Shown here: piece after piece, positions 2,197-13,030 of the stretch
How positions within the stretch are numbered: the stretch's first letter is position 1
How the letters are laid out: each line of letters opens with the position of its first letter
DNA from: Actinocrinis puniceicyclus
Lineage (GTDB): Bacteria; Actinomycetota; Actinomycetes; Streptomycetales; Catenulisporaceae
Direction of reading: 5' to 3'
Assembly (NCBI RefSeq): GCF_018283645.1
Contig: NZ_JAGSXH010000052.1
Coordinates: forward strand, 1 to 40,462
DNA length: 40,462 nt
Made by a program: the position numbers and the translations under genes
The notes under the pieces: model-generated
The model's input: the letters and a program-made list of their open reading frames with translations, nothing else
The model's database searches: none
What the model was told of the DNA's origin: nothing

Positions 2197-2565
2197 GAGG
2201 GCTTATGTCCCGCGCCGTGAAGCGCACTGATTCGTCCGGTACGGCGGGCGGCGGCGTACGCTGCCGTCTGCCACCGGGCGCGAACGAAGTCGCGAGACCG
2301 CTTGCCTCAGTAACGAAACCGTCTCGGATTGTTGAAATCAACACCGGCCCGCAGGTAAGGGGTTCGGCCCGCGCCGCGGGTGTGCGACGATGAATGCCCG
2401 CCTCGGGGGTTTCGGGAGAGTGAGCCTCCCGACGTGATCCCCCGGCCCGGACAGCGGTCGACGCGGCCCGCATCCGTTCAGCACATGAAGGCGTGCCCTG
2501 ATACTGGCGGACGGTCCTCGCCGGGCGGCGGCCCGGAAGGTGAAGCAGGGGGAGAAGCGCAGCGC
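2197..2565 (+). promoter_or_regulatory. 369-bp intergenic region with a possible promoter
   Basis: No convincing gene is seen. The reading frame of the downstream gene stays open upstream to about 2380, but its first residues are low-complexity Pro/Gly/Arg and no ribosome-binding site precedes 2380 or the ATG at 2485. A possible promoter is TTCAGC (2477-2482), 17 bp, GATACT (2500-2505), about 60 bases before the chosen start. An imperfect inverted repeat GTTGA-AA-TCAAC lies near 2333-2344. Confidence 0.3.
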
Positions 2566-4227
2566 ATGCGAATACGCGAGAGCGTCGCGGTTGCGGACGA
2601 CCGGGGGTTCGACCAGCCCATCGACCCGTGGTGGCCGGACCCGGAGACCGACGACGCCGACGAGATCGATGACGCGGAAGGCGGCGCCGAGGACGCCGAT
2701 CCCCGTCCCCGGACCCGGCTCAGTGTCCGGATGGCCGCGCTGCTGCCGGTGCTCCCCGTGCTCGCCGCGCAGGCGTACCTCGCATGGAAGCTGCTGTGGA
2801 TCGACAACGCGTTCCTCGACGAGGCGACCTACCTCTACGCCGGCCACCAGGAGGTCGGCCATCTCGCGCACGGCACGCCGATCGCGACGTACCAGACCTT
2901 CTTCTCCGGGGCGCCGGTGCTCTACCCGGTGCTCGCCGCGCTGGTCGACGCCACGGGCGGCCTGACCGGCGCTCGGGTGCTCAGCATGATCCTGATGCTG
3001 TTGGCGACGCTCGCCGTTTATCTCACCGGCCGGCGAATGTACGGCACGCTCGCCGGCTTCTTCGCCGCGGCGCTGTTCGCCGCGCTCGGCCCCACCCTGC
3101 ACCTGAGCGCGTTCGCCACCTTCGACGCGCTCGCGCTGTGCCTGCTGGCCTGGTCGACCTACTGCGTCGTGCTGTTCGCGCACGGTGACCGCCGCGACGT
3201 GCTGGTCTACGGCGCGGCCCTGATGATCCTGGCCGACTGCGTCAAGTACGCCTCGCTGCTGTGGAATCCGTTCATCATTCTGCTCGGCGGCCTGTCCGGA
3301 CCCGGCTTCGCGGCGTGGAAGTGCTCCAGGTCCTGGAACCTGCAGCGGCTGGGCATGGTCACCGGGACGCTGCTGCTGCTGGCGATCATCATCGGGCGCC
3401 AGCCGTACTTCGACGGCTTCCTGTCGACCACACTCACCCGCAGTCCGAGCACGACCCCGGCCGGCGCGATCGGGACCGGCGTCGCGCACTGGATCGGCGC
3501 GCTGCTCGCCCTGGCCACCCTGGGCCTGCTGCTGATCGGGTTCCAGGCCTACCGGCACAGACTCTCGTGGGCCGAGGCGGGCACCGCGGCGGTGCTCCTG
3601 GCGGCCGGAACGGCCGCGCCGCTGAACCAGCTGCGAATACACACGCTGACCTCGCTGAACAAGCACGTCGACTTCGGTGCGCTGTTCGCGGCGGTGCTCG
3701 CCGGGGCCTTCCTCGCCCGGGTGATCGGCGCCATGCGGCTGCCCCGAACCCTACGGGCTCTCGCCGCCGCCGCCGCGCTGGCCGCCACGGTCGGGCCGAT
3801 CGGCTGGTTCGGCGTCGCGCAGGCGAAGACGATGCAGGACGAGTGGCCGAACTCGACCGCGATGATCGCGGCGCTCGAACCGCTGGTGCACAAGGGCCCG
3901 GACCGCTACCTGGTCGAGGATCCCTACGTCGCGGCCTACTACATCGGCAGCCGGGTGGGCTGGAGCCAGTGGGCCGACACGTGGTCGACCGCGTTCACCG
4001 ACCAGGCCACGGGCCGGCGCCTGACCGGCGTGCCCGCGTTCGAGGCGGCCATCGAGGCGCATCACTACGCGGTCATCGTGCTCAGCTTCACCGACACCGC
4101 GACCACGGACGAACAACTCGCCCCGCTGATCGGCCGGTCCGGATACAAGCTCGTGGCCAAGATCCCGCACAAGGACGCGCTCGGCAGCGGCCACTACTTC
4201 ATCTGGACGTACACGGCGACCCCGTGA
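2566..4227 (+). CDS. Polytopic membrane glycosyltransferase, GT-C / GT39-like
   Basis: 553 residues from ATG 2566, chosen because GGGGGAG (2548-2554) lies just upstream and the longer frame adds only low-complexity residues. The N-terminus has an acidic cytoplasmic stretch (about residues 24-46), then a first membrane helix (about 55-78) followed by IDNAFLDEATYLYAG. An Asp-Glu pair (Asp85-Glu86) in the first external loop is the hallmark of GT-C enzymes that use polyprenyl-phosphate sugars (ArnT and protein O-mannosyltransferase relatives). About nine more hydrophobic segments follow, then a soluble C-terminal part of about 110 residues facing outside. It probably transfers a sugar from a lipid carrier to a polymer or protein outside the membrane; donor and acceptor are unknown. 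It faces the GH26/GT2 operon tail to tail. Function at family level only. Confidence 0.7.
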   Translation: MRIRESVAVADDRGFDQPIDPWWPDPETDDADEIDDAEGGAEDADPRPRTRLSVRMAALLPVLPVLAAQAYLAWKLLWIDNAFLDEATYLYAGHQEVGHLAHGTPIATYQTFFSGAPVLYPVLAALVDATGGLTGARVLSMILMLLATLAVYLTGRRMYGTLAGFFAAALFAALGPTLHLSAFATFDALALCLLAWSTYCVVLFAHGDRRDVLVYGAALMILADCVKYASLLWNPFIILLGGLSGPGFAAWKCSRSWNLQRLGMVTGTLLLLAIIIGRQPYFDGFLSTTLTRSPSTTPAGAIGTGVAHWIGALLALATLGLLLIGFQAYRHRLSWAEAGTAAVLLAAGTAAPLNQLRIHTLTSLNKHVDFGALFAAVLAGAFLARVIGAMRLPRTLRALAAAAALAATVGPIGWFGVAQAKTMQDEWPNSTAMIAALEPLVHKGPDRYLVEDPYVAAYYIGSRVGWSQWADTWSTAFTDQATGRRLTGVPAFEAAIEAHHYAVIVLSFTDTATTDEQLAPLIGRSGYKLVAKIPHKDALGSGHYFIWTYTATP

Positions 4228-4289: not shown

Positions 4290-5429
4290 CTATTGGCCGA
4301 CGGCGACCAGGCTCAGCTTCTTGATCCCGTCGCGGAACGCCGTCTGCGTCGCCGGGTCCGCGTCGAAGCGCCAGTCGGCCGTCGAACCGCCGCGCCCGAC
4401 CTGGTACTCCGACCAGACGAAGCCGATCACGTCGGTGCGCTGCTGGACCCAGTCGAGCAGGTCCGCCGTCCAGCCGGGCTTCTGCGCGCCGGACTGGGAG
4501 CCGGTCTCGGCCAGCAGCAGCGGCTTGTTCGTGAAGGCCCTGATCTTCGCCATGGTCGGCCCGAGCAGCTGCATCGCGGTGGTCTCGTGGTCGTCGTACG
4601 CGGAAAGGCCGATCCAGTCGACGTACGCGTCACCGGGATACAGCTCGTCGAGGCTGAGCCGCGACTGGGCCCCGCGCAGGATGTTCGGCGCCCAGATCCA
4701 GATGACGTTGTTCGCCCCCGCGCGGGTGAAGATGTCGTGCACGTGCTTCCACGCGGCCACGTACGATCCGGGGGCGTTTCCGTTGACCTTCTCGCACCAC
4801 GGGTACCAGTCGCCGTTCATCTCGTGTGCGAACCGGATCGCCACCGGCCACTGCTGCGCCGCCGCGGCCTGCGCGAACCTCGTGATGTAGGCGTCGTACC
4901 TGCCGCCGGTGATCTGGCTGAGCGCGTACGCGGGCTGCTTCGCCTGCGCCTTCGTGGTGCCGCCCTGCGCCCACGGCTCCCAGGTGATGACCGGCAGTTC
5001 GTCGTGCGCGTAGGAATCGGCCACGGTGGCGGCCGGGAAGTCCTGTACCCAGGTGGTGAAGGTCTCCGACATGTTCGGCGCCACGCCTCCCGCGGCCTGG
5101 GCCAGTTTGCCCACCGCCGTGCCGTTCCACGGCACGTCCGCGGCCATCACCCCGAAGTAGTTGGCCGTCGCGGCGACGAACTGCTGTTTGGTCGGCACGG
5201 TCTTGGTGGCCAGCGCCCTGGCCACCTTCGGGTCGACCTTGGTCAGGCCGCCGGTCTGCGCGGACGCGGTCGACTGCGCCTGCTGGGCGATCGCCGCCTC
5301 GTGGTACACGCCGAAGACCACCGCGCTGAGCATCGCGGTGTTCACGACCATCCATATTCGCAGGCGTGGCTTCCGGTTGGCGCGCCCGGCCTGTGCCCCG
5401 GCCGCGCCCGCGTGCACTGCCTTACGCAC
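4290..5429 (-). CDS. Membrane-anchored GH26 family glycoside hydrolase
   Basis: 379 residues. An N-terminal signal-anchor (about residues 24-42) follows a basic cytoplasmic stretch, then an Ala/Gln/Ser linker and a GH26 barrel. The acid/base is Glu203 in FAHEMNGDWYPW and the nucleophile is Glu308 in PLLLAETGS; YPGDAYVDWIGLSAY is the typical strand between them. GH26 covers beta-mannanases, beta-1,3-xylanases and beta-1,3-1,4-glucanases, so the substrate is open. The GTG start at 5429 overlaps the last 8 bases of the upstream GT2 synthase gene, implying translational coupling and action on the polymer made by that synthase. It is a close paralogue of the protein at 11927-13030, sharing the block AIRFAHEMNGDWYPW. 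Confidence 0.85.
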   Translation of the reverse strand: MRKAVHAGAAGAQAGRANRKPRLRIWMVVNTAMLSAVVFGVYHEAAIAQQAQSTASAQTGGLTKVDPKVARALATKTVPTKQQFVAATANYFGVMAADVPWNGTAVGKLAQAAGGVAPNMSETFTTWVQDFPAATVADSYAHDELPVITWEPWAQGGTTKAQAKQPAYALSQITGGRYDAYITRFAQAAAAQQWPVAIRFAHEMNGDWYPWCEKVNGNAPGSYVAAWKHVHDIFTRAGANNVIWIWAPNILRGAQSRLSLDELYPGDAYVDWIGLSAYDDHETTAMQLLGPTMAKIRAFTNKPLLLAETGSQSGAQKPGWTADLLDWVQQRTDVIGFVWSEYQVGRGGSTADWRFDADPATQTAFRDGIKKLSLVAVGQ

Positions 5430-6744
5430 TGATCAACACCGAAATCGTGAGCATGATCCCTCCGAGTAGATAGGGAACGACGGCCAGCGGGTTGAAGCCG
5501 CGTTCCCCGGAGAACCCCGCCGACCGGGTGCCCCAGCCGGCATTGTGCGCGCAGCGGAAGAAGCCGAGCAGCCGTACCGGCAGCAGGATCAGTGTATTGA
5601 TCATCATGAACACCGGCAGGTAGAGCAGGTCGACCGGCCGGTAGGCGAAGTGCCGGCCGAAGCGCACGGTGATCGAGACCAGGGTCAGGAACCCGGCCAG
5701 CACCATCACCAGTGGGATCGAGCGGGCAGCGTCGTCCGGCAGCGGCAGCTGGCCGTAGATCGCCGGGCGGTCCCGGTGCAGCACGAACGCCGAGATCCAC
5801 GAGGTGAAGGTGCCCAGCAGCACGAACGGCACCAGGATGTCCACCGCGTAGAACAGTGCCAGGAACCGGGCCTCGCGGATCATCCACGGCATCATCCGCA
5901 GGGTGTTGTACTGCGAGCCGCGAGCCCACCGGTACTGCTGCTTGACCAGCTTCCAGACCTTCGTCGGCGCGTCGGTGTACACCAGCGAGGTCGCCTGGTA
6001 CACGGTCTGATACCCGGCCATCAGCGTGTAGTTCGTCAGCGTCCGGTCGTCGCTGACCTCGAGGAAGGTACCCAGGAACTTCTCGGTGAGGAACCGCTCC
6101 ATGCAGTCCACCAGGATCTGCCTGCGGAAGGCAATGGTGCGCCCGGGCAGGCAGCCGACGGTGCCGACCACGCTCATCGCGGGCATCGAGTACTCGCAGC
6201 GCACGCTTTCCAGCCAGTCCGCCCAGCGGGTGAGCACCGAGCGGGCCGGATCGAGGATCCGCTGGCGGGTGGTCACGCCTCCGATCCGGGGGTTGCGGAA
6301 GGGCTTGACCAACTCGGCCAGCGTCCGCTCGGTCCACATCGTGTCCGAGTCGACCAGCACGGCGATCTCGCCGCGGGACCGTTCGATCGCGATCCGCAGG
6401 GCGTTGCGCTTGCCGGGGACGGCGGTCCACACCCAGGTGACCCCGGCCTTCTCGCAGATCTCCTCGAGCACCTCGTTGCGCGGGCCGTTGATGACCACGA
6501 TCACCTCGGTCGGCTGCTGCTCGGTGATCCGGTCCAGCACCTCGCGGAACAGGTCCTCCGGCTCGTCGACCACCGGGATGATCACCGAGGTGGTGCCGGT
6601 CCAGGCGCGCCGCCAGGGACGATAGCGGCGCAGCAGGGCGACGCGCACGATCCACAGCAGCCACACCAGGAGCATGAAGGCGGCGAACGGATAGAAGGCT
6701 CCGTCGAACCAGTAGTTGCGCAACTCCAGGAGAAATGCGAGCAC
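5422..6744 (-). CDS. Processive GT2 membrane glycosyltransferase (hyaluronan/chitin synthase-like)
   Basis: 440 residues from GTG 6744. Two N-terminal membrane helices precede a family-2 catalytic domain with TSVIIPVVDEP, DSD (132-134, UDP/metal site), VSDDRTLTN (Asp232/Asp233, where hyaluronan synthases have GDDRHLTN, including the catalytic base) and QQYRW (269-273, the Q-x-x-RW motif of processive synthases). Four or more C-terminal helices would form the export channel. The family makes and extrudes beta-linked polymers such as hyaluronan, chitin oligomers or glucans; the product here is unknown. The frame is open to a TTG at 6843, but that extension is Arg-rich and has no ribosome-binding site, so GTG 6744 (weak CGGA upstream) is preferred. 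The 3' end overlaps the GH26 gene by 8 bp. An operator-like repeat lies about 135 bp upstream. Confidence 0.85.
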   Translation of the reverse strand: MLAFLLELRNYWFDGAFYPFAAFMLLVWLLWIVRVALLRRYRPWRRAWTGTTSVIIPVVDEPEDLFREVLDRITEQQPTEVIVVINGPRNEVLEEICEKAGVTWVWTAVPGKRNALRIAIERSRGEIAVLVDSDTMWTERTLAELVKPFRNPRIGGVTTRQRILDPARSVLTRWADWLESVRCEYSMPAMSVVGTVGCLPGRTIAFRRQILVDCMERFLTEKFLGTFLEVSDDRTLTNYTLMAGYQTVYQATSLVYTDAPTKVWKLVKQQYRWARGSQYNTLRMMPWMIREARFLALFYAVDILVPFVLLGTFTSWISAFVLHRDRPAIYGQLPLPDDAARSIPLVMVLAGFLTLVSITVRFGRHFAYRPVDLLYLPVFMMINTLILLPVRLLGFFRCAHNAGWGTRSAGFSGERGFNPLAVVPYLLGGIMLTISVLISA

Positions 6745-6879
6745 TGCGAGTCCGTCCGTGTGTCCCTGCCCCGCAAGCCGCCGTCGACCCCGGCGGCATG
6801 GACCGGGCTCCCCATCGCGGCTCGTCGGTGCGCCGCCGCGCAATAGCTAATGAGTGGATGCACCCGGCGTCATCGTCGG

Positions 6880-7149: not shown

Positions 7150-8838
7150 ATGGCGGCCTGGGCACGGGGGAGGCGGAATCGGGCTTGCGCGTTGACGGCC
7201 GCCGCGATCGCACTGGCGGCGGTGGCCATCGGCGGACAAGCCGCCGCCGCGACGAGGTCGAGCGGTCCGCCGTGGTACTTCAGCGCCTTCGACATGAACG
7301 ACGTGTGGAAGATCACATCCGGCGGGCAGGTCGTGGTCGCGGTGGTGTCCGGCGGCGTCGGATCGCCGGCCGGGATGCTGCAGGACGCCCTGATACCCGG
7401 CAGTGACGTGTCCTCGGACGGCGGTGCAGGCGGAACCGCCGACGTGCTGTCGGCCTACGACGGGACGCAGGTCGCCGCGCTCATCGCGGCCAAGGCGGCC
7501 TCGCCGGTGCAGGGCATGGCGCCCGGCGCGTCGATCCTTCCGGTGCGGGACATCGCCAAGGGAGAACAGTCCTCTGATGCCGCGGAGACGTCGCGGGGCA
7601 TCCGCTATGCCGCAGACCACGGCGCGGCCGTCATCGTCGTCGTCGACACGGCCCCGCGGATGGACGGGTCCGTGGCCGCGGCGGTGGCCCACGCGGAGAG
7701 CAAGAACGCGATCGTCATCGCCCCCTCCGGCAACACCGGGCAGTCCGGGAACGTCGTCAACGCCGTGTGCTCGTTCGACGGCGTGCTGTGCGTCGGCGCG
7801 ACCTCGCCGGACGGCAAGCGCTGGCCGAACTCGGCGTCCGGGCCGAAGATCGACCTGGCCGCGCCCGGCGTGCAGGTGACCGTGCCCACCGCCTCGGGCG
7901 GGACCAGGCTCGGCTCGAGCACCCACTACAGCGCCGCGCTGGTCGCCGCGGAGGCCGCGCTGATCCGCTCCGCGCACCCGACCTGGAGCGCCGGGCAGGT
8001 CGTGCGCGTGATGCTGCAGAACACCGACGGCGGCAGGGCCGACCACACCCGCGCCGGCGACGCGATCGGCTACGGCATCATCAAACCGTTGGCGGCGGTC
8101 AAGGCCGCTCAGCCTTCGAATACGGCGAACCCGCTCTCCACGGCCAGCGCGCGTGCGTCGAGCCCGGCCCCCGCGCCGAGCCACGCCGGCCGCACCGCGG
8201 CCGCATCCGGCTCGTCGCGCGGCTCGGGCTCCGGGAACACCCTGCTGATCGTCGGCGCGGCCCTGGGCGGCCTCGTGGTCATCGGGCTCGTGGCGTGGAT
8301 CCTGCTGCGCAGTCGCAGCCGCAGACGCAACTACCTGACCGATCCGGCCTACGGCGCGGGGTACTTCGGGCAGGACCCCGGTCCGACCTCCCAGATCGGG
8401 GGATACCAGGGCTGGAACTCGCCGCCGCAGGTGCCGCCGTACCCGCCGGCCCCGGCTGCGCCGCCGCCGTTCCAGCCCGGACAGGACCCGCAGTCGTACT
8501 GGGGGTCACAACAGGCGCAGCAGGGCCAGCCGCCCCAGCCGCCGCCGGAGATGTCAGAGGCCGAAATCGGCCGTGGCTACACCCAGCCGTTCGCCGGCGA
8601 GCCGCTCGCATCGCAGCCGTGGCCGCCGGCCGGCCCGTGGGACGCGCACGGCGAACCCGGTCAGGAGCAGTTCCCGGCCCAGGATCCCGCGTCCGGGCCG
8701 GCCGCTGCGCAAGGGCCGCAGCCGGAGCACACCGGATCCGCCGTACCCGGACAGCCATCGGATCCGCAGCAGCAGCAGCAGCAGTCGCAGCAGCAGTCGC
8801 AGCAGCAGCCGCGCCAGACCCCGGGCGACTCGTCGTGA
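7150..8838 (+). CDS. Mycosin-like S8 family membrane protein, catalytic triad lost (pseudoprotease)
   Basis: 562 residues from ATG 7150, preceded by GGAGGGGA (7137-7144). Signal peptide about 1-34, a subtilase-like domain about 40-320, a Ser/Ala/Pro linker, one membrane helix (about 363-387), then a roughly 175-residue Pro/Gln-rich tail. This is the layout of mycosins, the proteases of type VII secretion, except that their tail is short. Aligning the motifs, the Asp site (usually AVIDTGV) reads VAVVSGGVG (Ser67), the His site (HGTxVA) reads DGTQVA (Asp104), and the Ser site (GTSYAAPYVAG) reads STHYSAALVAA (His259). The oxyanion Asn is kept in APSGNTG (Asn195). It therefore probably does not cleave peptides and may be a structural or binding protein. 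No ESX genes are in the window. Its stop overlaps the next start. Confidence 0.75.
   Translation: MAAWARGRRNRACALTAAAIALAAVAIGGQAAAATRSSGPPWYFSAFDMNDVWKITSGGQVVVAVVSGGVGSPAGMLQDALIPGSDVSSDGGAGGTADVLSAYDGTQVAALIAAKAASPVQGMAPGASILPVRDIAKGEQSSDAAETSRGIRYAADHGAAVIVVVDTAPRMDGSVAAAVAHAESKNAIVIAPSGNTGQSGNVVNAVCSFDGVLCVGATSPDGKRWPNSASGPKIDLAAPGVQVTVPTASGGTRLGSSTHYSAALVAAEAALIRSAHPTWSAGQVVRVMLQNTDGGRADHTRAGDAIGYGIIKPLAAVKAAQPSNTANPLSTASARASSPAPAPSHAGRTAAASGSSRGSGSGNTLLIVGAALGGLVVIGLVAWILLRSRSRRRNYLTDPAYGAGYFGQDPGPTSQIGGYQGWNSPPQVPPYPPAPAAPPPFQPGQDPQSYWGSQQAQQGQPPQPPPEMSEAEIGRGYTQPFAGEPLASQPWPPAGPWDAHGEPGQEQFPAQDPASGPAAAQGPQPEHTGSAVPGQPSDPQQQQQQSQQQSQQQPRQTPGDSS
8767..8808 (+). repeat. In-frame CAG trinucleotide repeats (poly-Gln tail)
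   Basis: The arrangement is (CAG)6-TCG-(CAG)3-TCG-(CAG)3, in frame near the end of the mycosin-like gene, encoding Gln6-Ser-Gln3-Ser-Gln3. Copy-number change would alter the length of the cytoplasmic tail without shifting the frame. It sits 27 bp before the overlapping start of the next gene. Confidence 0.9.
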
Positions 8839-10667
8839 CCGAGTTCGCCGTGGCGGATGAGTCGCCCTCGGATCGGAGAGTTGCGCGGCGGTCCGCCGAC
8901 GAGCGAGCGCAGCCGCTGACCGGTCGGCTCCGGCGGTTCTGGCGAGCGGCCTGGCCGTCACTGCTCTACCTGATCCCCGCGGTCGCGGTGATGAACCACC
9001 TGCTGTTCCATCCGCTCTCCCAGCACAGCAGCGTGGACGGCGCCGACGAGTACCTGTTCGAGTGGGTCTACACCAGCGTCGCGCAGAATCTGGCCCATCT
9101 GCACAGTCCGATGTTCGCCACCAGCATCGACGCCACCGCCGGCGTCAATCTGATGGCGAACACCGGCATGCTGCTCGTCGCGGCCCCCTTCACGCCGATC
9201 ACCCTGCTGTGGGGCGCGCCGGTGTCGATCGCGCTCGTGCTGACCCTCAACCTCGCCGCGTCGGCGGCCGCATGGCGCTGGTTCTTCAACCGCCACCTGC
9301 TCGCCGCGCAGGGCGATGGCCGGGCGGCCTCGCCGCGCACGAGGGCCGCGCTGTGCTGGATCGGCGCACTGGTGTGCGGGTTCGGCCCCGGCATGATCGC
9401 GCATACCAACGGGCACCCGAACCTGACCGCCCTGTGGCTCGTCCCGCTGCTGATCGACCGCGCGCTGCGGCTGGCCAAGCCGGTCACGCCGGTGCGCGAC
9501 GGCGTCCTGCTCGGAGTGCTGGCCGCCGGGCAGATCCTGCTGACCGAGGAGATCCTGTTCCTGCTCGGGCTTGGGCTGGCCGTCTTCGTGGTGCTCTACT
9601 GCGCGCAGCGGCCGCGCGTCTTCGCGCAGGTCTGGCGCGGCGCCGCCACCGGACTGGCCGCCGCCCTGTCGACGGCCGCGGTGCTGGCCGGCTATCCGCT
9701 GTGGTTTCAGTTCAACGGCCCGCAGTCGTACGGCGCGATTCCGGACTCTCCGACGCTCTACTCGGTCAACGCCAAGACCTACCTGCTCTTCCCGGCGCAT
9801 TCGATCGCCGGCGACACCGCCGCGATCAAGGCCGTGCTCAAGAGCAACACCGAGCAGGCCGCGCTCATCGGCTGGCCGCTGCTGATCCTGGTGCTGGCGG
9901 CGGCCGTCCTGCTCGCCCGGGAACTGGTGGCCCGCACCGTCGCGGCCACGCTGCTGGTCCTCGCCGTGCTCTCCTGGGGGCCGAATCCCAGGTTCGGCAG
10001 CCTGGCGCTGCCGTTCCACGGGCCCTGGTACTGGGTGCAGTCGCTGCCGCTTTTCCAGGACGCGCTGCCGATCCGGCTCAGCCTGCTGATGTTTCCGGCC
10101 GCGGTGTTCCTGTTGGCGGCGGCCGCGCTGCGGATCGTCGCGAGCGGATCGGTGCTCGTGCGCGCGGGAGCCGGCGCCGTCGCCGCCGCGGCGCTCGTCC
10201 CGTTGGTCCCGCTGCCCTTCCCGGTCAGTCCGAGAGCGCCGCTGCCCGCCTTCATCACGGCCGGGGCGTGGAGTCAGTGCCTCGCGCCCGGGCAGACCCT
10301 GGCGACCGTGCCGTTCACGGACAAGGCGCGCTGGGAACCGGTGCGCTGGGTGACCGCCGCCAACGCGGGGTTCGCCATCCCGATGGGTTCGGTATGGGTA
10401 CCGGGCAAGAACGGCGACGCGCAGATGGGCCCGCAGCAGCCGGCTACCGCCACCCTGCTCGACAAGGTCGACACGACCGGCCGGATCCCGAAGATCACGG
10501 CGAAGATGCGTGCCGCGGCCCGCGCCGACCTCGCCTCGTGGCGGACGCGCTGCCTCGCCGTGCTGCCCTCGGCCGCGCACGCGCAGGCGGATGCCCGAGC
10601 CGTCACCGCGCTGCTCGGCCCGGGTCGGCTGATCGGCGGCGCCTGGACCTGGAAGATCGAGCCCTGA
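8835..10667 (+). CDS. Large integral membrane protein, GT-C/YfhO-like, function unknown
   Basis: 610 residues from GTG 8835, whose GTGA overlaps the stop of the mycosin-like gene by 4 bp. After a polar N-terminus of about 35 residues come about ten hydrophobic segments. The first external loop (HSSVDGADEYLFEWVY, about residues 60-75) is acidic, followed by ATAGVNLMANTG. A soluble stretch of about 140 residues closes the protein. This layout (acidic first loop, many helices, C-terminal extracytoplasmic part) is that of GT-C folds and YfhO/PTPS-related membrane proteins of actinobacteria, which are thought to move sugars from lipid carriers. No catalytic residues can be assigned with confidence. 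Overlap with the upstream gene implies joint expression and perhaps one membrane assembly. Confidence 0.6.
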   Translation: MTEFAVADESPSDRRVARRSADERAQPLTGRLRRFWRAAWPSLLYLIPAVAVMNHLLFHPLSQHSSVDGADEYLFEWVYTSVAQNLAHLHSPMFATSIDATAGVNLMANTGMLLVAAPFTPITLLWGAPVSIALVLTLNLAASAAAWRWFFNRHLLAAQGDGRAASPRTRAALCWIGALVCGFGPGMIAHTNGHPNLTALWLVPLLIDRALRLAKPVTPVRDGVLLGVLAAGQILLTEEILFLLGLGLAVFVVLYCAQRPRVFAQVWRGAATGLAAALSTAAVLAGYPLWFQFNGPQSYGAIPDSPTLYSVNAKTYLLFPAHSIAGDTAAIKAVLKSNTEQAALIGWPLLILVLAAAVLLARELVARTVAATLLVLAVLSWGPNPRFGSLALPFHGPWYWVQSLPLFQDALPIRLSLLMFPAAVFLLAAAALRIVASGSVLVRAGAGAVAAAALVPLVPLPFPVSPRAPLPAFITAGAWSQCLAPGQTLATVPFTDKARWEPVRWVTAANAGFAIPMGSVWVPGKNGDAQMGPQQPATATLLDKVDTTGRIPKITAKMRAAARADLASWRTRCLAVLPSAAHAQADARAVTALLGPGRLIGGAWTWKIEP

Positions 10668-10723: not shown

Positions 10724-11791
10724 CTAGCCGTTCGTCCCGCCTGCCGCACGCGCGGCGCCGACCGTGTAAAGCAGTCGGCCGCCGTGTTGCTTGACCAGGC
10801 TGCGCAGCGCGCTCGCCCCGACCGGGAAGTCGACCAGCAGATGGTCGCGGCCCTGCGTCGGGTAGTTGAAGTAGACCAGGGCTTTGACGGTGGCCGGGTG
10901 CTGGTCCGCCCAGGAGAACACGAGGTCGAACACGCCACGGCGGTCGGGCTGCGGCGCGGTCGGCGCCCATTCGGCGAGCATCACCGGCTTGTCGTGCTGC
11001 TGGCTGAACGCCGCGAGCACGTCGAGCCCGTCCGCCCCGGCCAGTACCGTCGCCTCGTTGTCGGCGCTCGGATAGGTGTCGATGCCGACCCAGTCCACGT
11101 ACCGGTCGCCCGGGTACCAGGCGGAAGCGGCGAGTGAGCTGAACCTGCCGGTGTTCGGCGACCACACGAAGGCCGCGTTCCCGGCGCCGGCGTCCTGGAA
11201 GACCTCCCAGACGTGTTGCCACGCCGCGACGTAGTCCGCCGGCGAGACGTAGCCGTCGCCCCACAGCCCGTACCAGGTCGCGTTCATCTCCCAGTCCAGC
11301 CGGAGGAACACCGGCCTGCCGAACGCGGCGACGGCCCGCGCCTGCCGGTACAGGTACGAGTCCCAGGCGCCCGAGACGACCTTGCCGCCGGTGAAGTCCA
11401 CGCCCCACGAGACCATCGGCGCCGTGGAGGGCAGGTCGTCCACGTCGTCGAGCACCGTACTCACATCGTCGGTGCCGCCGATGTATCCGCCGAGGATCGC
11501 GGGGCGCTCGATCCCGGCCGCGGACTCGAACGCCGGAAGCGTCGCAACGCTCGACGACACGCCGAAGTAGAGTCGCCCGTTCGCGGGGATCGCCGGCCGC
11601 CCCGAGGCGCCGCCCGGGCCCGTGGAGCCGGGCGCCGGGACGTGCCCGGCGGGGCTGCTCGTGGCGGTCCGGACGGCCGTTTGCGCGGCCGAGCTGCGGC
11701 TGCCTCCCGCGATCGCCACGCAGCCGAGGCTGATCGCGACGACCAGGAAGGCGCTGAGCAGGGCCGCGAGGCGGAACCGGCGTCTGATCAT
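10724..11791 (-). CDS. Exported GH26-like glycoside hydrolase (divergent)
   Basis: 355 residues from ATG 11791. The N-terminus is a signal peptide or anchor (hydrophobic about residues 8-29; a Cys at 24 is not in a good lipobox), then a Ser/Pro/Gly linker to about residue 70. The barrel has acid/base Glu168 in FLRLDWEMNATWYGLWG and nucleophile Glu274 in PVMLAEWAPT, with YPGDRYVDWVGIDTYP between. This is the GH26 layout, but HEMNGDWYPW is replaced by WEMNATWYGLW, so its substrate may differ from that of the other two GH26 proteins. It lies 135 bp downstream of the GH26 gene at 11927-13030 on the same strand and converges with the membrane protein gene ending at 10667. No strong ribosome-binding site is seen. 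Confidence 0.75.
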   Translation of the reverse strand: MIRRRFRLAALLSAFLVVAISLGCVAIAGGSRSSAAQTAVRTATSSPAGHVPAPGSTGPGGASGRPAIPANGRLYFGVSSSVATLPAFESAAGIERPAILGGYIGGTDDVSTVLDDVDDLPSTAPMVSWGVDFTGGKVVSGAWDSYLYRQARAVAAFGRPVFLRLDWEMNATWYGLWGDGYVSPADYVAAWQHVWEVFQDAGAGNAAFVWSPNTGRFSSLAASAWYPGDRYVDWVGIDTYPSADNEATVLAGADGLDVLAAFSQQHDKPVMLAEWAPTAPQPDRRGVFDLVFSWADQHPATVKALVYFNYPTQGRDHLLVDFPVGASALRSLVKQHGGRLLYTVGAARAAGGTNG

Positions 11792-11926: not shown

Positions 11927-13030
11927 TCAGCTGAGCCGCCGGGCCAACGTCAGGGTCCGAATCCCCTTGCGGAACGCGGAGAGGGTGGCCGGATCGGCGT
12001 CGAAACCCCAGTCGGTGCCGGCTCCCTGCGTGTAGGTGTACTCGAACCATACGAAGCCGAGCACGTTCGGCTGCCTCGCCAGCCAGCCGAGGAAGTCGGC
12101 GGTCCAGGCCGCCTTGTTCGAACCCGGCTGACCGCCCAGCTCGGTGAGCAGCAGCGGCTTGGCGGTGAACGCGCGCAACTGCTTCAGCGTCGGGTCGAGC
12201 AGCTGAGCCGTCGTCCGCTCGGAGACCTCGTACGCGCTCAGGCCGATCCAGTCAACGTATCGGTCTCCCGGATAAAGCCGCTTCATCGGCGTGGTCGCGC
12301 TGCGTACGATGTTCGGCGACCAGACCCAGATCACGTTGAGCGCGCCCGCCTTCTGGAACAGGTCGTGGACGTGCCGCCACGCCTCGGCGTACTGCCCGGC
12401 CGTGTTGCCGTTGACCCCCTCGGACCACGGATACCAGTCGCCGTTCATCTCGTGCGCGAAGCGGATCGCCACCGGCCACTTGACGCCCTTGACCGAGGCG
12501 GCGAACCGGGTGATGTAGGCGTCGTGGGCGCCGTCGATGATGCTCTTGAGCGTGTAAGCGGGGGCGTGGGCCGAGGTGTGACGCGCAGTGCCGCCGGCGA
12601 ACGGCTGCCAGCTGAGCACCGGCAGCATGCCCTGCGCATAGGCGTTCACGATCGGCTGCGGATCGAAGTCCTTGGTCCAGTTGACGAAGTACTCCGCCAT
12701 GTTCGGGGAGACCCCCGCGCTCGTCGCGATCTTCGCGCGGGCCGCGGCTTGCCACGGCACGTTGGCCGCGGCGACGCCGAAGTACTTGCCCGAGCCCGCC
12801 ATGATCTGTGCTTTCGTGGGGATCACGACGCTCGCGGCGGTGGCCTTCGGCGACGCGGAACCGTTCGCCGACGTGGCGGGACGCGCCGACGGGCGCGTCC
12901 CGAAGGCGCCGAGGCCGTAGGCGAGTGCGGAGCCGACGGCAAGGCACGCGGCGAGCAGAATCACGGCCAACCGCATCCGTATGTGGATGCCCGTGTGGAT
13001 GCCCGGCGTCTTCCGTTCCCGCTGCGCCAC
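11927..13030 (-). CDS. Exported GH26 family glycoside hydrolase
   Basis: 367 residues from GTG 13030, with a GGGGGG run 6 bases upstream. A basic N-terminus and hydrophobic segment (about 19-43) act as signal or anchor, followed by a Ser/Ala linker and a GH26 barrel from about residue 70. Acid/base is Glu194 in FAHEMNGDWYPWSEG and nucleophile is Glu297 in PLLLTELGG. The sequence is a close paralogue of the GH26 protein coupled to the GT2 synthase (positions 4290-5429), including KYFGVAAANVPW against NYFGVMAADVPW. Both may therefore act on the same kind of beta-linked polymer. It is transcribed away from the ribosomal operon; a 16-bp palindrome lies 50 bp upstream of its start. Confidence 0.85.
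   Translation of the reverse strand: MAQRERKTPGIHTGIHIRMRLAVILLAACLAVGSALAYGLGAFGTRPSARPATSANGSASPKATAASVVIPTKAQIMAGSGKYFGVAAANVPWQAAARAKIATSAGVSPNMAEYFVNWTKDFDPQPIVNAYAQGMLPVLSWQPFAGGTARHTSAHAPAYTLKSIIDGAHDAYITRFAASVKGVKWPVAIRFAHEMNGDWYPWSEGVNGNTAGQYAEAWRHVHDLFQKAGALNVIWVWSPNIVRSATTPMKRLYPGDRYVDWIGLSAYEVSERTTAQLLDPTLKQLRAFTAKPLLLTELGGQPGSNKAAWTADFLGWLARQPNVLGFVWFEYTYTQGAGTDWGFDADPATLSAFRKGIRTLTLARRLS

Follow-up and report, generated by a model that had tools for sequence, protein, structure and literature searches.

The window, a stretch of 40,462 nucleotides of Actinocrinis puniceicyclus DNA, carries within a surface-glycan locus the gene for a mycosin-like subtilase in which all three catalytic residues are replaced. 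This pseudo-mycosin gene occupies positions 7150..8838 of the plus strand and encodes 562 amino acids; its reading frame, coordinates and residue numbers were verified. The ATG at 7150 is preceded by GGAGGGG and an alternative in-frame ATG at 6850 is less likely as the start. The ortholog from Actinospica durhamensis (L035:7312-8724, minus strand) starts at a comparable place, after GGAGGG. The protein possesses the mycosin layout of signal peptide, subtilase domain and C-terminal membrane helix. A predicted N-terminal signal peptide region with a hydrophobic stretch after RRNR (amino acids 1-35, 7150..7254) leads into a subtilase domain (amino acids 42-320, 7273..8109) delimited by a family match, an AF2 model and structure matches. 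A C-terminal transmembrane helix is predicted at about amino acids 364-386 (8239..8307), where hydropathy reaches a maximum of 2.5 over 19 residues, and is followed by a Pro/Gln-rich tail of 172 amino acids (37 Pro, 34 Gln; 8320..8835) that would be cytoplasmic in the topology implied by this layout. A pair of cysteines, Cys207 and Cys214 (7768..7791), is common to the ortholog and nearly absent from canonical mycosins.

The NCBIfam mycosin model TIGR03921 matches the protease domain of the protein, with nearly all of the model covered (E 3.1e-54, 184 bits, model positions 3-352 of 353), in agreement with the earlier note on this DNA, which had called the protein mycosin-like. The score lies below the equivalog cut-off of 278.75, which is uninformative because two canonical mycosins of the same genome also score below it (225.7 and 244.6 bits). 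Pfam PF00082 yields no match at E values up to 10 while it matches the ortholog at 8e-30; this miss is not decisive because the mycosin model and the fold settle the subtilase identity. Judged by its sequence, the product of 7150..8838 is a mycosin (TIGR03921) homologue.

The surrounding genes include glycosyltransferase and glycoside hydrolase families and are not those of an ESX locus, a setting on which the earlier note is silent. Directly downstream on the same strand lies a gene for a 610 amino acid protein (8835..10667) that has no Pfam family and reads as a polytopic membrane protein. Its start overlaps the pseudo-mycosin stop codon in the sequence GTGA at 8835, an arrangement that makes translational coupling of the two genes likely. 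Divergent from the pseudo-mycosin gene, a GT2 glycosyltransferase of the NodC/PgaC-like type is encoded at 5422..6843 on the minus strand. It resembles chitooligosaccharide and poly-GlcNAc synthases (NodC 1e-29, PgaC/IcaA 9e-16, both below the curated cut-offs) and is 73% identical to its counterpart in A. durhamensis. Family matches and synteny further identify three GH26-family proteins on the minus strand (4290..5429, 10724..11791 and 11927..13030) and a PMT_2 (GT39-like) membrane glycosyltransferase on the plus strand (2380..4227). The locus may include a further, uncharacterised glycoside hydrolase, the 683 amino acid protein encoded at 145-2196, which has only weak cellulase, GH35 and GH42 matches.

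The catalytic positions of the subtilase domain are occupied by other residues. Ser67 (TCC, 7348-7350) stands at the catalytic Asp site, Asp104 (GAC, 7459-7461) at the His site and His259 (CAC, 7924-7926) at the Ser site, while the oxyanion Asn195 (AAC, 7732-7734) is retained; all codons are on the plus strand. Asp104 lies in the motif YDGTQVA (amino acids 103-109, 7456..7476) and His259 in the motif GSSTHYSAAL (amino acids 255-264, 7912..7941), both identical in the ortholog. In an alignment with 92 canonical mycosins, the three columns are 100% Asp, 100% His and 100% Ser (92/92). This set draws on three families for its mycosin-like matches, namely the family of this genome, another family of the order and a third one represented by the large genus g4, and adds a few sequences from elsewhere in the class. 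The stretch from G250 to E268 is equal in length to that of the canonical sister mycosins, so that His259 is placed at the Ser site without a gap. Nine sequences went into an AF2 model of the domain, which has a pTM of 0.83 and a mean pLDDT of 73 and adopts the subtilisin fold of family S8, with matches to subtilisins, MycP1 and MycP3 in the Z range of 32-33 (MycP1 4m1z, Z 32.3; MycP3 4kg7, Z 32.2). In subtilisin, the helices carrying His64 and Ser221 start at His64 and at Thr220/Ser221. The model helices start at Y103 and T258, which matches subtilisin and lends independent support to the alignment register. Alignment, model and helix boundaries thus agree on the residues that the earlier note had assigned to the three catalytic sites, and the alignment with canonical mycosins bears out the retained oxyanion Asn.

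Changes extend to the rest of the active site. The Gly of the GTS motif, invariant in the canonicals, is replaced by Ser257, and position 165 of the substrate-binding strand, a Ser in 92% of canonicals, is Val in the pseudo-mycosin and Pro in the ortholog. Neither the alignment nor the AF2 model and its helix boundaries revealed any other Asp, His or Ser taking over as a substitute triad. Ser257 was considered as a nucleophile and rejected, as this would require a two-residue deletion before it and a two-residue insertion after it, and the model helix starts at T258. The Asp/His/Ser triad of an active protease is therefore absent, with S67/D104/H259 found here and Asp/Asp/His in the ortholog. 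The arrangement also differs from that of sedolisins, which combine a Ser nucleophile with Glu/Asp, in that the nucleophile site holds His. The protein thus lacks both the Ser nucleophile and the His base, and its GTS motif and substrate strand are altered, all of which supports the earlier proposal of a pseudoprotease. L097 and L110 are two mycosins that have kept the triad but lost the oxyanion Asn, which is Asp in the former and Ser in the latter.

The only syntenic ortholog found, and the best match in 40 relatives, is encoded by A. durhamensis (CSCA 57; G005). Identity between the two proteins amounts to 45% overall and 48% in the core. The ortholog carries the motifs VDTGV, YDGTQVA and GSSTHYSAAL and accordingly an Asp-Asp-His arrangement. 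GSSTHYSAAL is the longest identical run of the pair (10 residues) and YDGTQVA the third longest (7 residues), though run length alone is not strong evidence because a run of 10 somewhere in the core arises in 8% of shuffles. Asp104, His259, Tyr103, Gln107 and Ser257 are common to the pair and nearly absent from the canonicals; further shared novelties are R170 and H299, besides the cysteine pair. A genome-wide scan with the single pseudo-mycosin sequence returned no relative and a scan with the two-row alignment returned A. durhamensis only. The DNA pattern encoding DGTQVA...THYSAA was matched in 2 of 392 genomes of the order, namely the two carriers. When 395 genomes of the class were searched with a profile, the loci examined, which exclude most of the weaker matches, held nothing but canonical mycosins. 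The earlier note had raised the possibility of a conserved new Ser-Asp-His site. Asp104 and His259 are indeed conserved in the sole ortholog found, whereas Ser67 occurs in this genome alone and is replaced by Asp in the ortholog, so that the data do not support S-D-H as a conserved unit.

In both carrier genomes, the pseudo-mycosin is found together with the GT2 protein (73% identity), GH26 proteins and GT39-like membrane proteins in a locus adjoining the ribosomal S10 operon, with a gene order around the pseudo-mycosin that is not the same in the two. The A. durhamensis locus sits between tuf and rpsJ. There, a Ser/Thr kinase gene with a LamG-like domain (PF13385; L035:5304-7262) lies 3' of the pseudo-mycosin gene on the same strand, between the glycan locus and tuf. 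The GT2 was detected at E below 1e-30 in 3 of 21 genomes searched, the third being a 33% identical protein. In four relatives, the fetched part of the tuf-rpsJ region contains no GT2, GH26 or pseudo-mycosin gene. The relatives G003 and G001 carry more than 10 kb of other genes beside rpsJ (L135, L136). Among their products are proteins weakly similar to that at 145-2196 of the window and a kinase resembling the A. durhamensis one, which marks the site as variable and used by carbohydrate genes; the distance between tuf and rpsJ is no more than a few kb in G002 and G009.

Phylogenetic analysis recovers the two pseudo-mycosins as a monophyletic pair (100/98-99) on long branches (1.0-1.2), sister to canonical mycosins of the same family. 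This sister clade brings together canonical mycosins of this genome and of the genus to which A. durhamensis belongs, with copies in both carriers (L037, L096). Four canonical mycosins with GSS/GTS motifs that are arrayed in tandem in G003 (L095, C1:6759500-6766700) also belong to it, and a 5.1 Mb genome of the same order (G015; L008, L130-L134) has 11 mycosin-like matches, those examined having intact triads. Of 24 near-invariant positions, each conserved in 97% or more of the canonicals, D67, H104, G257, S259 and P206 (five in all) differ in one or both pseudo-mycosins, and the remainder, including structural Gly and Pro residues and N195, are intact; a post hoc Fisher test for the triad among the changed positions gives p 0.005. 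Canonical rows lose 0.25 of these positions on average and at most 2. The loss of near-invariant positions mainly at the active site adds to the case for a pseudoprotease, since change concentrated at the catalytic centre of a retained fold is the usual sign of a pseudoenzyme rather than of decay. Two orthologs in syntenic loci, with intact frames and changes centred on the active site, constitute a maintained gene family that has lost its catalytic residues. NG86 estimates are dN 0.52 and dS 0.70, with synonymous sites near saturation and 94% GC3, so that dN/dS is uninformative. The identity of about 45% between the pseudo-mycosins compared with 73% for the neighbouring GT2 indicates that they evolve fast, and constraint on them may be weak. 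The simplest order of events would be a duplication from a canonical mycosin lineage of the same family, with its sister copies staying intact in both genomes, followed by the changes of His to Asp, Ser to His and Gly257 to Ser and then by the divergence of the two lineages. The Asp to Ser change would have come later, in this genome, and sequence comparison indicates that the His to Asp and Ser to His changes probably preceded it. This remodelling left the subtilisin fold, the signal peptide, the C-terminal membrane helix and the tail in place.

Together, these observations lead us to favor, with a probability of roughly 0.6, a membrane-anchored pseudoprotease that arose from a mycosin and now serves a surface-glycan system as a subunit for binding or scaffolding. 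After export, the protein would stay anchored on the outer side of the membrane and cut nothing, while the remodelled groove of the former active site and the surface of the domain would bind a partner. Candidate partners are a membrane glycosyltransferase or hydrolase of the locus, a secreted protein or the glycan itself. By analogy with mycosins, which hold ESX complexes together without proteolysis, it may serve the surface-glycan locus as a subunit for assembly or regulation. Secretion continues with protease-dead MycP1 and MycP5, and mycosins have a stabilising effect on ESX complexes (PMC5082899). Support for the favored explanation comes from the replacement of base and nucleophile in both orthologs against a canonical Asp/His/Ser in 92/92 mycosins, from open frames whose products share 48% of core residues and long unbroken stretches of identity at the two altered sites, from the retained fold and the concentration of change at the active site, from the monophyly of the pair as sister to canonical mycosins, and from the co-occurrence of gene and glycan locus in both carrier genomes. 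Against it stand the fast evolution of the pair, which may mean weak constraint, the differing gene order around the pseudo-mycosin, and a link to the glycan locus that is one of neighbourhood in two genomes only.

A working site of another kind, in which Asp104 and His259 together with Asp/Ser67, Asn195, Tyr103 and Tyr260 bind a metal or small ligand or carry out non-proteolytic chemistry, is unlikely. Asp/His pairs can bind metals, and a binding site based on these residues is possible because Asp104, His259, Tyr103, Gln107 and Ser257 are shared by two proteins only 48% identical in their cores, with fully identical runs around Asp104 and His259. The trypsin-fold pseudoprotease MamO did become a metal binder, via a site outside its triad (PMC4794232). 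On the other hand, the data hold just two orthologs, the first residue of the proposed site is not conserved (Ser versus Asp) and the substrate strand changed differently in each (V165 versus Pro). A rearranged catalytic triad is likewise unlikely. A rotated catalytic relay was considered and rejected, as its first residue is not conserved and the geometry of the subtilisin fold would put Asp in the middle position; with Asp there, where a relay needs His, a Ser-His-Asp relay should not be able to form. A more specific version of the ligand site, in which the former active site was rebuilt as a conserved Asp104/His259 pocket (with Asp/Ser67, Asn195 and Tyr103) for a metal or sugar, with the effect of tuning a synthase of surface polysaccharide, appears improbable. 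To our knowledge, such tuning would be a function outside those known for subtilases.

We consider it doubtful, and slightly less probable than a new ligand site, that the pseudo-mycosin is a decoy or regulator of an active protease, pairing with its canonical sister to steer or block it in the manner of CspC and CspA with CspB. Canonical paralogs from the sister clade persist in both genomes (L037, L096), and subtilase pseudoproteases alongside active relatives are known (CspC/CspA, PMC6636752), but the canonical sister of this genome is encoded on another contig (C429), outside the glycan locus, and sister-clade mycosins also occur in genomes without a pseudo-mycosin (G001, G003). Still less probable is a structural part like that of MycP in an ESX (type VII) secretion complex, played by a subunit for which proteolysis has become dispensable. 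The mycosin domain layout and the established non-proteolytic role of MycP (PMC5082899) would fit such a subunit, and the genome does hold an ESX locus with EccB, EccC and a mycosin. However, that locus lies on contig C406 together with a canonical mycosin of its own, no ESX gene could be recognised around the pseudo-mycosin in either genome and relatives with many mycosins lack a pseudo-mycosin. The ESX locus on C406 (L040:6023-13210) encodes a long EccC of 1880 amino acids in which EccCa and EccCb are fused, with ~570 extra residues ahead. Drift in a decaying gene heading for loss is very improbable: while the long branches and the loss of Asp in this genome only are compatible with decay, frames are intact in two genera, change is centred on the active site with structural invariants kept, the pair shares identical 10- and 7-residue runs and a new Cys pair, and the gene overlaps the next one.

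The pseudo-mycosin resembles several systems in which a protease fold serves without proteolysis. CspC and CspA of Clostridioides difficile share the subtilisin fold and have lost two catalytic residues, with a regulatory role that does not involve catalysis; CspC keeps the Asp (D105, T170, G485), as does the Actinospica ortholog (PMC6636752). They differ in being spore proteins with a retained prodomain, a jelly-roll domain and other replacement residues. PIMMS2, a subtilisin-like pseudoenzyme of Plasmodium, is similarly built from a signal peptide, a subtilisin-like domain, a transmembrane helix and a C-terminal extension, and its catalytic residues also vary among orthologs (PMC5520436), but it is eukaryotic, not a mycosin, and some of its orthologs keep Asp, His and Ser. 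MamO of magnetotactic bacteria is another bacterial protease domain repurposed for a non-proteolytic function (PMC4794232), with a different (trypsin) fold and a metal site outside the former triad. Sedolisins have a subtilisin-like fold with a Ser-Glu-Asp triad, in which an acidic residue replaces the His base (PMC11593635). They keep the Ser nucleophile, however, and their mechanism is not possible in the pseudo-mycosin because its Ser site is His.

No naturally inactive mycosin in a polysaccharide locus was found in the literature searched, the coverage of which was incomplete. The pair represents a mycosin lineage that has lost nucleophile and base and is nevertheless kept, outside an ESX context, in a glycan locus. 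The graded series of canonical sister, D-D-H ortholog and S-D-H protein lends itself to studying the conversion of a protease into a binding protein. It also shows that an eye-catching 'rotated triad' can arise in separate steps and not as a new catalytic design. A close comparison is with MycP1, MycP3 and MycP5, which are alike in fold, signal peptide, C-terminal membrane helix and oxyanion Asn. In contrast to these, the pseudo-mycosin has all three catalytic residues replaced (two in the ortholog), carries a long Pro/Gln-rich tail and is encoded in a glycan instead of an ESX locus. It provides a natural counterpart of the laboratory mutants which showed that mycosins can function without proteolysis.
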